Part shown: piece after piece, positions 2,649 to 7,552 of the stretch
Layout of the letters: each line of letters opens with the position of its first letter
Position numbering within the stretch: position 1 is the first letter of the stretch
NCBI RefSeq assembly: GCF_900109375.1
Contig: NZ_FOAB01000006.1
Location: forward strand, 186,001-250,000
DNA: 64,000 bases
Direction of reading: 5' to 3'
Source: Aquimarina amphilecti
Lineage (GTDB): Bacteria; Bacteroidota; Bacteroidia; Flavobacteriales; Flavobacteriaceae
Program-made: the position numbers and the translations under genes
Notes under the pieces: model-generated
Databases searched by the model: none
What the model was told of the DNA's origin: nothing
Seen by the model: only the letters and a program-made list of their open reading frames with translations

Positions 2649-3950
2649 ATGAGAACAAAGACTTTAAAAAAGAATAAGATCAATGTAGTTACATTGGGTT
2701 GTAGCAAGAATGTGTATGATAGTGAGGTTCTTATGGGACAACTAAAGGCCAACAATAAAGAAGTAGTTCATGAAGAAGAAGGAAATGTTGTTGTGATTAA
2801 CACTTGTGGTTTTATAGCAAATGCTAAAGAAGAATCTGTTAATACTATTTTAGAGTACGTACAGAAAAAAGATCAAGGTGTTGTAGATAAAGTTTTTGTT
2901 ACAGGTTGTTTATCAGAAAGATATAAGCCGGATTTACAAAAGGAAATTCCAGATGTTGATCAGTATTTTGGTACTACTGAGCTTCCCGGTTTATTAAAGG
3001 CTTTGGGAGCAGATTATAAACATGAACTTATAGGAGAAAGATTAACAACTACACCTAAAAACTATGCATATTTAAAAATTGCAGAGGGTTGTGATCGTCC
3101 TTGTTCCTTTTGTGCTATTCCATTAATGCGGGGTAAGCATAAGTCAACTCCTATAGAAGGATTAGTAACTGAAGCGGAGAAATTGGCTGCCAATGGAGTA
3201 AAAGAATTAGTATTGATTGCTCAGGATTTAACGTATTATGGGTTAGATTTATATAAGGAAAGAAAATTAGCAGATTTACTTCGCGCATTGGTAAAGGTTG
3301 ATGGAATAGAATGGATTCGATTACATTATGCATTTCCTACAGGATTTCCAATGGAAGTGTTAGAAGTAATGAGAAAGGAACCTAAGATCTGTAATTACAT
3401 AGATATTCCTTTACAGCATATAGCTGATCCTATTCTGAAATCAATGCGAAGAGGAACTACTAAGGCTAAAACTACAAAGCTCTTAAAAGAATTTAGAGCA
3501 GCTGTTCCGGAAATGACAATTCGTACGACTTTGATTGTCGGGTATCCTGGAGAAACACAAGAGGATTTCGAGACGTTAAGAGATTGGGTAAAAGAAATGC
3601 GTTTTGAGCGCTTAGGTTGTTTTACATATTCTCATGAAGAAAACACACATGCTTTTAATCTTGAAGATGATGTGCCAGAAGAAGTAAAAATGGACCGTGC
3701 CAATGAGATAATGGAGATACAGTCACAAATCTCTTGGGAATTAAATCAACAGAAGATAGGACAGGAGTTTAAAGTGGTTGTTGATCGTAAAGAAGGACAA
3801 TACTTTGTAGGTAGAACCGAGTTTGATTCTCCTGATGTTGATAACGAGGTTTTGATAGATGCTTCTAAGTTTTATCTAAAAACAGGAGAATATACAACTG
3901 TTAAGATATATGAAGCAGAGGATTTTGATTTATATGGAGAAGTTGTTTAA
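2649..3950 (+). CDS. rimO: Ribosomal protein S12 methylthiotransferase RimO
   Basis: 433 residues, the usual family length. RimO is a radical-SAM enzyme that methylthiolates an aspartate of ribosomal protein S12 in the cytosol. The N-terminal MTTase domain carries the three cysteines of the auxiliary Fe-S cluster (TLGCSKN near residue 18, INTCGF, TGCLSER). The radical-SAM motif CxxxCxxC is seen as CDRPCSFC, followed by the family block IPLMRGKHKS. The tail is a TRAM domain. TLGCSKN and the CSFCAIPLMRG context distinguish RimO from MiaB. It has its own promoter and seems monocistronic. Confidence 0.97.
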   Translation: MRTKTLKKNKINVVTLGCSKNVYDSEVLMGQLKANNKEVVHEEEGNVVVINTCGFIANAKEESVNTILEYVQKKDQGVVDKVFVTGCLSERYKPDLQKEIPDVDQYFGTTELPGLLKALGADYKHELIGERLTTTPKNYAYLKIAEGCDRPCSFCAIPLMRGKHKSTPIEGLVTEAEKLAANGVKELVLIAQDLTYYGLDLYKERKLADLLRALVKVDGIEWIRLHYAFPTGFPMEVLEVMRKEPKICNYIDIPLQHIADPILKSMRRGTTKAKTTKLLKEFRAAVPEMTIRTTLIVGYPGETQEDFETLRDWVKEMRFERLGCFTYSHEENTHAFNLEDDVPEEVKMDRANEIMEIQSQISWELNQQKIGQEFKVVVDRKEGQYFVGRTEFDSPDVDNEVLIDASKFYLKTGEYTTVKIYEAEDFDLYGEVV

Positions 3951-4202: not shown

Positions 4203-4355
4203 AAAAAAAATCGAGGATACGATGATCCTCGATTTTGTTGCGTATACTCTTTAGATTTTTTGGCTAATTCTAATTTATAAGAGAACTTTATTACTTTATT
4301 TTATTAAGGGACAAAGTCTTATAGTAAACGCTATTTTTTTAATTTAATTTTATTC
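4203..4355 (-). ncRNA. Candidate structured small RNA (6S-like?) of about 150 nt
   Basis: A minus-strand -7 element (TACTTTTG, 4361-4368) lies just before a run ending in a strong intrinsic terminator with a 12-bp stem (4207-4218 with 4225-4236, 6-nt loop) and a U-tract. Between them, in minus orientation, GCGTTTACT (4323-4331) pairs with AGTATACGC (4240-4248) with one mismatch. Directly nested inside, 4313-4322 pairs with 4277-4289 (ATAAGA and CTTT halves, 3-nt bulge). A small TTAGA/TCTAA hairpin is possible on the 3' side. No reading frame fits. A closing stem, a 3'-side mini-hairpin and a terminal hairpin resemble 6S RNA, and a flavobacterial 6S family has been described, but identity is not shown. 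Ends are inferred. Confidence 0.5.
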
Positions 4356-4360
4356 GGGCG

Positions 4361-4368
4361 CAAAAGTA
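4361..4368 (-). promoter_or_regulatory. Promoter -7 element of the 4203-4355 RNA candidate
   Basis: Minus strand reads TACTTTTG followed by CGCCCG, an exact TAnnTTTG match with GC-rich initiation sequence. The -33 region is only loosely TTTCG-like. A dyad AGTTA-ACGC-TAACT at 4400-4413 sits just upstream and could bind a regulator. Confidence 0.6.
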
Positions 4369-4697
4369 TTTAAAAAAGAGATACGAAATTCTTAATTTTA
4401 GTTAACGCTAACTGCGTTTTTGAAATTGAAAGAAATAGTAGTTTAAGGTTTTCGTAACTCAATAAAGGTAAGGGTTGAGGTATTAATAATATAGTTGGAA
4501 AAAGTAAGGTTTGAATGTATTATTTTTAGGTTTTTATTGAAATAAGTACATTGCTGTTTTTCTTCAAAAAACTTTAAACTTAACAATTTGATAATATTGA
4601 GGTTTAAATATTATGTTTCATTGATTTTTGTGACGTGAAAACATGAATAGTTTGATTATAATGTATTTGTTTAGGTTGTAGTAGTTATTTGAAGATT

Positions 4698-4809: not shown

Positions 4810-5523
4810 TTAAAGCGTTATAGGAATTTCCATTAATAGTATTTTTGAAGATTCATTTGACGTGATTTGCAGTTGTTCAACATCCCAGATCCCTAGTCCA
4901 TCCCTCTTTTCTAATAAATTGTTTTCTAGAGATATATTTCCTTCTAGTATAAAAGCGTATACACCGTTTTTTTTGTCATTTAGCGTATATGTATGTGTAC
5001 TTCCTTTTTCTAATTTGCCTAAATGAAACCAAGCATTTTGATGAATCCATACACCATCATCTTCTTGATTAGGAGATAAAATCTGGTATAAGTTGTTTTT
5101 AATATCATTATCTCTAATGGTAATTTGATCATATCTAGGAGTAACGTTCTTTTGGTTTGGAGTAATCCATATTTGTAAGAATTTTACTTCCTTGTCAAGG
5201 TTCTTATTGTATTCACTATGAAATACACCGGTTCCGGCACTCATTACCTGAATATCTCCTTGTTTGATAACGGTTGTGTTTCCCATACTATCTTGATGTT
5301 CTAAATCACCTTCAAGTGGAATGGAAATGATTTCCATGTTATCATGAGGATGTTTTCCAAATCCTTTTCCTGCTGATACGGTATCGTCATTTAGTACTCT
5401 TAGAGCTCCAAAGCTCATTCTTTCTGGGTTGTAATAATTTCCAAAACTAAAAGTATGGTAAGAGTTTAACCAACCAAAATTGGCAGTTCCTCTAGTATCT
5501 GATTTATGGATGATCGTTTTCAT
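4810..5523 (-). CDS. Pirin family protein (YhhW-like bicupin)
   Basis: 237 residues, typical of short YhhW-type pirins, some of which have quercetin 2,3-dioxygenase activity. The N-terminal cupin has the family block (RGTANFGWLNSYHTFSFGNYY) and the metal-ligand region GKHPHDNMEIISIPLEG with HxH and Glu. A further His is in TGVFHSEYN. Cytosolic. An AraC-type regulator gene lies 96 bp upstream on the same strand and may control it. Physiological substrate unknown. Confidence 0.9.
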   Translation of the reverse strand: MKTIIHKSDTRGTANFGWLNSYHTFSFGNYYNPERMSFGALRVLNDDTVSAGKGFGKHPHDNMEIISIPLEGDLEHQDSMGNTTVIKQGDIQVMSAGTGVFHSEYNKNLDKEVKFLQIWITPNQKNVTPRYDQITIRDNDIKNNLYQILSPNQEDDGVWIHQNAWFHLGKLEKGSTHTYTLNDKKNGVYAFILEGNISLENNLLEKRDGLGIWDVEQLQITSNESSKILLMEIPITL

Positions 5524-5619: not shown

Positions 5620-6486
5620 TTAGTGTTTTTGCTTAAAATTAGAGGGTGAAACTCCGGTGCATTTTTTAAAGAAATTACTAAAATTAGCTGGTTCATTAAA
5701 GCCAAGATTATATCCAATTTCTTTCGTTGTTTTATCAGAAAAGCTTAATAACCTTTTAGCAGCAATAATAATTCTAGATTGTAAATATTCTTTGGCTGTT
5801 TTGCCTATAAGGGATTTTATAGTTCTGTTTAAATGGTCTGGCGTAACATGCAGCGCTTTGGCATATTCATGTACTTTATGCCATTCGGAAAAATGCTTTT
5901 CTACTAGATTCTTAAATTCTTTAAGTATCATAGATCCTGCATGTAATTGCTGTGGATCTTTTGTGTGAATATCACAAATATTATTACTGTAGATCAAAAA
6001 AAGTTTTAATAGTGCTCCTATCATTTCTGATTTAAACTTAGTAATAGAATGGTGTGTTTCGAAAATCTGAGCACTATAAGAATTCAATTGTTTTAGTTGT
6101 TCTGCATTTAAAAGGAGAGGAGGAGTGTATCCATAGTCTTGAAAAAGGTTAATATCTTCTATAAAACGATAATCGATATCATTCTTTACTAAAAATTGTC
6201 TGGAAAATGTAATTACCCAACCATCAGGTTTTTGTGTTTCTCTAATTTGATGAACTTGTCCTGGGCTTAAAAAGAAAACTTGTCGATCTTTTAATAAAAA
6301 TTCATTAAAATCTATAATATGAATCCCTTGAGCTTTAGAGGTCAAAATGATAATATAAAAATCATGTCTGTGGGGTAAATCAACTTTGCCTGCTGATTTA
6401 TTATAAATGTCTTCCATTTTTTTGATGTCAAAAACTATTTGATTATTTCTTTCATCAATGAGTTTGTACGTCTTAATAGAAGTCAT
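5620..6486 (-). CDS. AraC family transcriptional regulator
   Basis: 288 residues. The N-terminal half is a cupin-like sensing domain (HRHDFYIIILTSKAQGIHIIDF with LSPGQVHQI). The C-terminal 100 residues form the double helix-turn-helix: HEYAKALHVTPDHLNRTIKSLIGKTAKEYLQ and the second helix GFNEPANFSNFFKKCTGVSPSNFK. It is encoded just upstream of the pirin gene on the same strand, so it probably regulates pirin or itself. Effector unknown. Confidence 0.93.
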   Translation of the reverse strand: MTSIKTYKLIDERNNQIVFDIKKMEDIYNKSAGKVDLPHRHDFYIIILTSKAQGIHIIDFNEFLLKDRQVFFLSPGQVHQIRETQKPDGWVITFSRQFLVKNDIDYRFIEDINLFQDYGYTPPLLLNAEQLKQLNSYSAQIFETHHSITKFKSEMIGALLKLFLIYSNNICDIHTKDPQQLHAGSMILKEFKNLVEKHFSEWHKVHEYAKALHVTPDHLNRTIKSLIGKTAKEYLQSRIIIAAKRLLSFSDKTTKEIGYNLGFNEPANFSNFFKKCTGVSPSNFKQKH

Positions 6487-7112: not shown

Positions 7113-7120
7113 CAAATGTA
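7113..7120 (-). promoter_or_regulatory. Promoter -7 element of the two small lipoprotein genes
   Basis: Minus strand reads TACATTTG, matching TAnnTTTG, about 50 nt before the ATG of the first small lipoprotein. This supports expression of both micro-genes. Confidence 0.6.
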
Positions 7121-7552
7121 TTCAAAAAACTCAATGTAAATCATAAAATTATCTTAACAGCCCTTTGTTTACGGGCTTTATGGGGAAAACACGATGTTTA
7201 GTCTTCAACAAAAAAGAGAAAACATTCAATATTTAATATCGTATTGAAATGAATCTATAAATTATATGCAACTTTTAGATGTTTGTACTGAGAATGTAAT
7301 AAAAGAGCAAAAACCCTTAAGTTAACAATATGGTAATATTGAAGCCTTAAAATGAATTTAAATTATATTATTATCAATAAAATATGTATTTTAATAATTA
7401 TTTTTTAATAAAAGTTAATGTAGTTAAAGCTTTCATATGTATAAATTCCCCTTTTTTGTGTAGTTGTTAATCCTGAAATTTAGAAAACCTCGTTATTTGA
7501 ATATAATCATCTCAAATTAGTTGATTATGTATGTTATTTTATAGATTGTTTT
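7121..7552. other. AT-rich intergenic region
   Basis: No gene seen. At 7319-7352 there is a palindromic core CAATAT-GGTA-ATATTG inside a 23-base segment that is also present, with three differences, at about 4579-4601. Otherwise featureless. Confidence 0.5.

Follow-up and report, generated by a model that had tools for sequence, protein, structure and literature searches.

What does an intergenic region encode when a promoter and an intrinsic terminator frame a sequence with no open reading frame (ORF)? The question is raised by a locus of Aquimarina amphilecti (assembly GCF_900109375.1, contig NZ_FOAB01000006.1, positions 186,001-250,000 of the forward strand; this whole stretch of 64,000 nt is called the window), for which a reading made from the sequence alone had put forward a structured small RNA on the minus strand, possibly of the 6S type. 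The candidate is faced by a gene that we take to be rimO, the name given in that sequence-only reading (Table 1).

Table 1. Features of the rimO-side locus and of a second unit of the same design, in window coordinates
Feature	Position	Strand	Remark
rimO	2649-3950	plus	Pfam UPF0004, Radical_SAM, TRAM_2; faces the RNA
Predicted small RNA, ~150 nt	4203-4356	minus	ends deduced from the -7 box (5') and the terminator (3')
Intrinsic terminator, 12-bp stem then T-run	4207-4236	minus	terminator prediction
P1 closing helix, GCGU (4331-4328) with ACGC (4243-4240)	4240-4331	minus	invariant, 9/9 distinct homologs
Hairpin B (CUCU/AGAG), loop GAAUUAGCCAAAAA at 4270-4257	4247-4283	minus	CUCU/AGAG 100% paired
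Hairpin A, 8 bp, AACUUUGU/AUAAAGUU	4284-4318	minus	98.6% of cells paired, no covariation
Promoter, T-run and -7 box TACTTTTG	4361-4377 (box 4368-4361)	minus	TA[CT]TTTTG in 10/10 homologs
Operator-like dyad AATATTATCAAATTGTTAA	4580-4598	minus	-7 box 230 bp further on; mean pairwise identity 0.971 over ten homologs
Pirin gene	4810-5523	minus	
AraC-family gene	5620-6486	minus	
Two tiny predicted lipoproteins, 50 and 58 aa	6688-7063	minus	second unit of the same design
Dyad (7340-7322, one mismatch) and -7 box TACATTTG (7120-7113) of the second unit	7113-7340	minus	220 bp apart

A conserved unit from promoter to terminator

The -7 element that had been claimed is present on the minus strand, and it follows the consensus TAnnTTTG that the accessible part of one study places at -12 to -5 (PMC9723704). 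By itself such a box is weak evidence, since the two strands of the window together have 93 copies of TAnnTTTG; with a T-run before it and a C after it, it is found at two places in the window, i.e., the small RNA promoter and 7129. The claimed 12-bp terminator is also in place, and two terminator-like sites were found between 3500 and 5600, against 0.6 expected from shuffles. Likewise, none of ten homologs has an ORF of more than 8 codons lying wholly inside the transcript, in agreement with the absence of an ORF first noted for these 165 bp.

The comparison of homologous regions beside rimO, which had been suggested as a check, was the right test, and it opened a wider locus. By DNA search, full-length homologs were found in 6 of 55 other genomes, with 87-92% identity. 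A covariance model of the RNA core (R1), from which promoter and terminator were left out, recognises the RNA in 10 of 66 Aquimarina genomes, the own genome included, each time with at least 83.6 bits; three matches at 24-31.6 bits (L042, L043, L044) were set aside. The promoter and the terminator, which lie outside this model, are found in all ten R1-positive genomes. Over 299 genomes of the family, R1 run under strict filters found the own genome alone. A pattern search gave 12 matches, 7 in Aquimarina and 5 elsewhere, the latter having no R1 match at the site. Among the ten genomes, mean pairwise identity reaches 0.878 for the RNA (0.893 in its 5' half, 0.881 in hairpin B with P1, 0.841 in the terminator), 0.924 for the promoter and 0.971 for the dyad, which lies upstream of the RNA at all ten loci. 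The interval between dyad and promoter is at 0.653, and the background is lower, with 0.519 and 0.475 at the fourfold-degenerate sites of rimO and pirin and 0.42 in the 30 nt downstream of the RNA. These alignments show strong constraint from end to end of the ORF-less unit in the ten-genome clade of the window. Promoter, RNA and terminator are kept together in 10 of 66 genomes between diverged flanks, which upholds at this level the structured minus-strand small RNA first proposed. The marks of an independent small RNA gene are thus found together in the sequence (a promoter, no ORF, an intrinsic terminator and conservation above background), and we consider it very probable that the locus holds a real, conserved RNA gene on the minus strand.

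In the ten carrier genomes, the gene order is AraC-family gene, pirin, nitroreductase (in nine of the ten), RNA, then rimO facing the RNA. The nitroreductase gene follows pirin in the nine other carriers and is absent from the window genome (4599-4809), where dyad, promoter and RNA persist. rimO stands beside the site in all 28 genomes examined, i.e., 26 having the dyad-promoter module described below, plus G012 and G015, where about 100 nt lead from the nitroreductase to the next gene and the module is completely absent. An ortholog of the AraC-family gene was found in 17 genomes (57 searched), 7 of them without a strong R1 match; reading these seven loci revealed diverged versions at the same place in G060, G059 and G056. 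In G060 and G059, the diverged version carries GTTAGCCAAAAA and a terminator of different sequence, and in G060 and G056 the element comes after tiny lipoprotein genes (MIKK...).

Two connections of the locus to its neighbours were considered and put aside. The RNA as leader of a downstream signal-peptide gene (cl18) was rejected, because an intact cl18 ORF is called in only 4 of the 10 window-clade genomes while the RNA is present in all 10 (in G006, cl18 gives an additional tblastn match at 49% identity). An action of the neighbouring AraC protein on the dyad is disfavoured, because 13 module-bearing genomes have no AraC ortholog (E 1e-40, 57 genomes searched).

Predicted fold and the 6S question

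With its terminator, the RNA folds in silico at -29.1 kcal/mol (z -4.63), a value equalled by none of 200 shuffles, and two homologs give z values of -3.12 and -3.61. The stems drawn in the sequence-only reading stood in part. The outer GCGU/ACGC pairs of the closing stem GCGTTTACT/AGTATACGC are found in all nine distinct homolog sequences, but its inner four pairs form in 66.7% of cells; similarly, the inner part of the nested 10-bp helix forms in 98.4% of cells, but the outer part in 58.5%, with its G-C pair in one of nine. Comparison favours a fold made of P1 (GCGU/ACGC), the 8-bp hairpin A, hairpin B (CUCU/AGAG) and the terminator, the loop of hairpin B being common to lipoprotein 3' UTRs and to other sites preceding terminators. 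Beside rimO, conservation is strong but compensatory changes are absent among close homologs: in the core stems of the ten, no pair has changes on both sides, and the structure is therefore not proven by these homologs. A closing helix of changing sequence draws its support only from more distant relatives (see below).

The 6S-type identity first suggested did not survive. What the RNA has in common with such molecules is a similar length, a closing helix and a terminal hairpin, and 6S-Flavo (RF01685), as described in the accessible part of PMC2864571, is also a flavobacterial small RNA of similar size. However, the single RF01685 match of the own genome, at 105.7 bits, sits on another contig (G000:C4:21839-21958, i.e., L001 1501-1620), and between 4100 and 4500, beside rimO, there is no 6S match up to E 10. 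The fold differs as well: P1, two hairpins and a terminator take the place of the single long hairpin with a central, open-promoter-like bulge that is the hallmark of 6S RNA. We regard the 6S reading as extremely improbable. More generally, the Rfam search that had been recommended gave no match at gathering level in the window, with the site below every threshold. A RAGATH-27 (RF03100) match at 4382-4466 on the minus strand (33.7 bits against a gathering score of 76.1, in one of nine homolog loci) was taken as chance, and an SdsR_RyeB match at the element of G009 (26.1 bits against 38, one of nine loci) is below threshold.

A dyad-promoter module with and without lipoprotein genes

The 15-base core of the dyad, TTAYCAAATTGTTAA, occurs once in the own genome. 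When at most one mismatch is allowed, 42 of 57 genus genomes have a match, and a reversed control pattern also matches often; what speaks for a module is how narrowly the spacing is held, and not how many dyads there are. Indeed, 13 of the 30 dyad loci that we read have a TAnnTTTG box 230-233 bp further on, and all 13 then present lipoprotein ORFs, the loop motif, or both (an ORF in L164). Such pairing is missing in the other 17, among which a box at 227 leads to nothing in one locus, while isolated matches turn up in two others, TTAGCC at +117 in the first and a signal-peptide-like one at +804 in the second. Counting only boxes located 205-250 bp from the dyad with at most three mismatches (G070 is left out, as is the second operon of G065, at a contig end), 34 modules show a spacing of 230-233 bp in 25 cases, at the rimO site, and of 220-221 bp in 9 cases, at the second operon. 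The two classes lie about one DNA helical turn apart, which suggests that the helix face matters.

At the rimO site, 25 genomes have the dyad, the promoter 230-233 bp on and then a transcription unit, and 24 of these 25 units end in a hairpin with a conserved UUAGCC loop followed by a terminator. The loop motif is also found in G070 and reads UAGUUAGCC in G059; in G019, dyad, promoter and three lipoproteins are present and the loop motif was not found. The tiny lipoproteins of the second operon in the window have no Pfam match, and NCBIfam matches only far below cut-offs. The 3' UTR of this operon has a variant loop (AGCA, AACC or ATCC) in 7 of 10 genomes, and the loop is lost in the window, G026 and G064.

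What the rimO-site unit carries varies. No ORF is present in 15 genomes (the window clade of ten, G002, G004, G020, G025 and G059), and lipoprotein ORFs are present in 11 (G027, G030, G017, G023, G063, G060, G068, G056, G019, G070 and G072), related species having one to three MIKK-type lipoproteins there. Dyad, promoter, 3' hairpin and terminator are kept in both states. In G002 and G004, ATG ATC AAA AAA TAG, where a stop comes right behind the beginning of the lipoprotein, forms a MIKK-stop remnant joined to the usual 3' element; we read it as an ORF deletion. A tree of rimO from 28 genomes requires 6 changes to account for the no-ORF state, of which well-supported branches force at least 3. 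Such a tree counts changes of ORF state and not their direction, and we infer repeated loss of the ORF and not gain elsewhere. The sequences thus indicate that the RNA probably descends from a lipoprotein unit that lost its coding part.

A descendant of this kind could also be a functionless, decaying remnant, and the repeated absence of the ORF at the rimO site, together with the lack of the whole module in G012 and G015, goes in that direction. We nonetheless judge simple decay very improbable, identity being far above that of fourfold sites and flanks across RNA, promoter and dyad.

The 3' element across lineages and beyond the genus

From lineage to lineage, the elements allow a closing helix whose sequence changes (AAAUAG/CUAUUU, UAAUAG/CUAUUA, AUAACA/UGUUAU, UACUGCG/CGCGGUA and others), after which come the inner stem and the loop; the terminator sequence is not the same in distant relatives. 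In an arm-swap test on 13 non-redundant elements (15 minus the near copies G002 and G027), the native mean was -7.95 against -6.44 kcal/mol for permuted arms, 92 of 20,000 permutations being as good. The native arms were no better than swaps for G063, G056 and G070, and in G004, G030, G056 and G070 the best duplex is not P1 and uses sequence further 3', so that the test is not one of P1 alone.

A MAFFT alignment of the elements with their terminators gave no consensus structure, and a hand-chosen alignment of six elements from outside the window clade was used instead to build a second model (R2). It scores 46.5-66.4 bits on G002, G027, G023 and G060, which are not in its seed, and 37.7 and 35.2 bits on G020 and G068. 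It correctly locates 9 of the 10 window-clade RNAs (G009 is missed), but only with E values of 0.08-0.87 per genome, among chance matches of like score. Over 397 family genomes, R2 gave matches in 12 other genomes (29.5-36.4 bits), of which two, L200 and L205, have by eye a loop-like string before a terminator and the other ten do not. The loop hairpin and the terminator of the ORF-less RNA are positioned as in lipoprotein units of the same site, a trait of 3'-UTR-derived small RNAs; such RNAs are made from an existing mRNA, whereas in the window clade no ORF stands between promoter and hairpin.

The loop string itself is also found outside the genus. TTTGARTTAGCCAAAA has 16 occurrences in 14 of 299 family genomes, against 4 for the reversed control. 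An intrinsic terminator follows directly in 10 of the 16 exact matches when one stem mismatch is allowed (8 under a stricter rule); for random positions taken from the same loci, the figure is 70 of 4000. Of the six matches without a terminator, at least five are in or near open frames. The ten pre-terminator contexts comprise four histidine kinase-response regulator genes (called by Pfam in L214 and by likeness of sequence in the other three), two SusD-like genes, two large proteins without Pfam match, one DUF4890 protein below its cut-off and one context with no clear gene. Some are orthologous loci, and independent contexts therefore number about six. In L214, L183, L223, L225 and L226, a histidine kinase-response regulator gene is followed by the loop string (GAG/GAATTAGCCAAAA) and then by an intrinsic terminator; L214 is the site of the own genome (G000:C14:54815-54830), and the others belong to further genomes of the family.

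One explanation is that the loop hairpin acts in cis on termination or 3'-end protection, the ORF-less transcript being mainly its carrier or a by-product. The motif does stand directly before terminators in several gene contexts, and it stays at the 3' end whatever the cargo. We find this unlikely, given that conservation is just as high in the 5' half of the ORF-less RNA (0.893), a long way from its 3' end, as in the hairpin (0.881), and that the unit is kept without an ORF in ten genomes, where a by-product should decay. A bolder proposal is that Flavobacteriaceae use a hitherto undescribed 3'-end code, UUUGARUUAGCCAAAA immediately ahead of intrinsic terminators, with a dedicated reader, RNA-binding protein or RNA, for which the ORF-less Aquimarina unit would be a sponge. 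We advance it as speculative and more doubtful than not. If true, this code would mark the mRNAs of tiny envelope lipoproteins, SusD-like proteins, a hybrid histidine kinase and others, and an operator-controlled unit of Aquimarina would have repeatedly shed its lipoprotein ORF to become a non-coding sponge for the reader. In the portion of the open-licence literature that was covered, nothing was found on this RNA or on a UUAGCC motif.

A possible trans partner

The explanation that we favour as a whole, at about even chances, is a stand-alone regulatory RNA which comes from a lipoprotein unit and shares a trans partner with other transcripts. Loss of the lipoprotein ORF from the dyad-promoter-hairpin-terminator unit would have left a stand-alone small RNA gene. 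A regulator bound at the dyad would drive both this RNA and the tiny-lipoprotein operon at 6.7-7.3 kb. Through its loop, GAAUUAGCCAAAAA, hairpin B would be recognised in trans by an RNA-binding protein or another RNA; other mRNAs with this loop at their 3' ends would be recognised by the same partner, for which the ORF-less RNA would compete as a sponge. The shared-partner step is tentative; we see it as plausible on sequence grounds while being slightly more inclined to doubt it than to accept it. Moreover, in the window, G026 and G064 the lipoprotein operon has lost the loop from its 3' UTR, which excludes competition between RNA and operon there, and the absent or variant loops of these 3' UTRs weaken the sponge idea for that pair.

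Alternatively, the molecule could be a classical trans-acting small RNA whose conserved single-stranded parts pair with translation-start regions of targets, as GibS and FopS do. Such a role would fit a ~150-nt transcript with its own promoter and terminator; the parts able to pair would be its 5' third or the loops CCCUUAAUAAAAUAAAG and GAAUUAGCCAAAAA, the loops and the 5' part being invariant, and the accessible parts of PMC7366714 and PMC11697453 provide a precedent in the phylum. Yet pairing with the tiny-lipoprotein mRNAs is unsupported in all ten genomes, where 10-60 of 60 shuffles are as good in each, and this role does not predict that the loop recurs before the terminators of unrelated genes. 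We rate it as rather unlikely.

Relation to known small RNAs

A regulatory RNA derived from a lipoprotein unit would have relatives in kind. Small RNAs from mRNA 3' ends, including sponges such as SroC, have been reviewed (PMC9438474), and as in that review, so far as its accessible part goes, the 3' end of a coding unit with its terminator would serve here as an RNA. The reviewed RNAs are cut from, or start inside, an mRNA that is still coding, whereas in Aquimarina the coding part is gone, the unit's own promoter would make the RNA, and ORF-less and ORF-bearing versions coexist in sister species. In Bacteroides thetaiotaomicron, GibS, the FopS family and the RNA-binding protein RbpB have been reported (PMC7366714, PMC11697453); from the accessible parts of these reports, these small RNAs resemble ours as independent Bacteroidota genes ending in an intrinsic terminator, and one FopS member is moreover derived from a 3' UTR. 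FopS RNAs are set apart by their description, in those parts, as a single-stranded 5' stretch plus a terminator hairpin, without P1 and loop hairpin; Rfam gives no match at the site, the comparison with GibS and FopS being otherwise by description only. The Rfp small RNAs of the same bacterial family, one of which, Rfp18 of Flavobacterium psychrophilum, affects protease mRNA levels, are likewise intergenic and structured, according to the accessible part of PMC9723704 and by description only.

The interest of the locus is threefold. The recurring loop may be a family-wide 3'-end signal, in a phylum where RbpB works with small RNAs in Bacteroides (accessible parts of PMC7366714 and PMC11697453). 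An operator-like site is held about 230 bp from a promoter, or one helical turn less, while the intervening sequence diverges. Finally, the same promoter-hairpin-terminator unit with and without a coding part, at one syntenic site, constitutes a natural experiment in which what the RNA does can be told apart from what the protein does. The coding parts found there are themselves diverse: a MIKK-type lipoprotein of 153-156 aa with a fibronectin type III domain is encoded in L164 (G072, 1783-2241) and L128 (G070, 1000-1467), and in L151 (G019, 1783-2373) three near-identical tiny lipoprotein genes stand in tandem behind one dyad-promoter unit.
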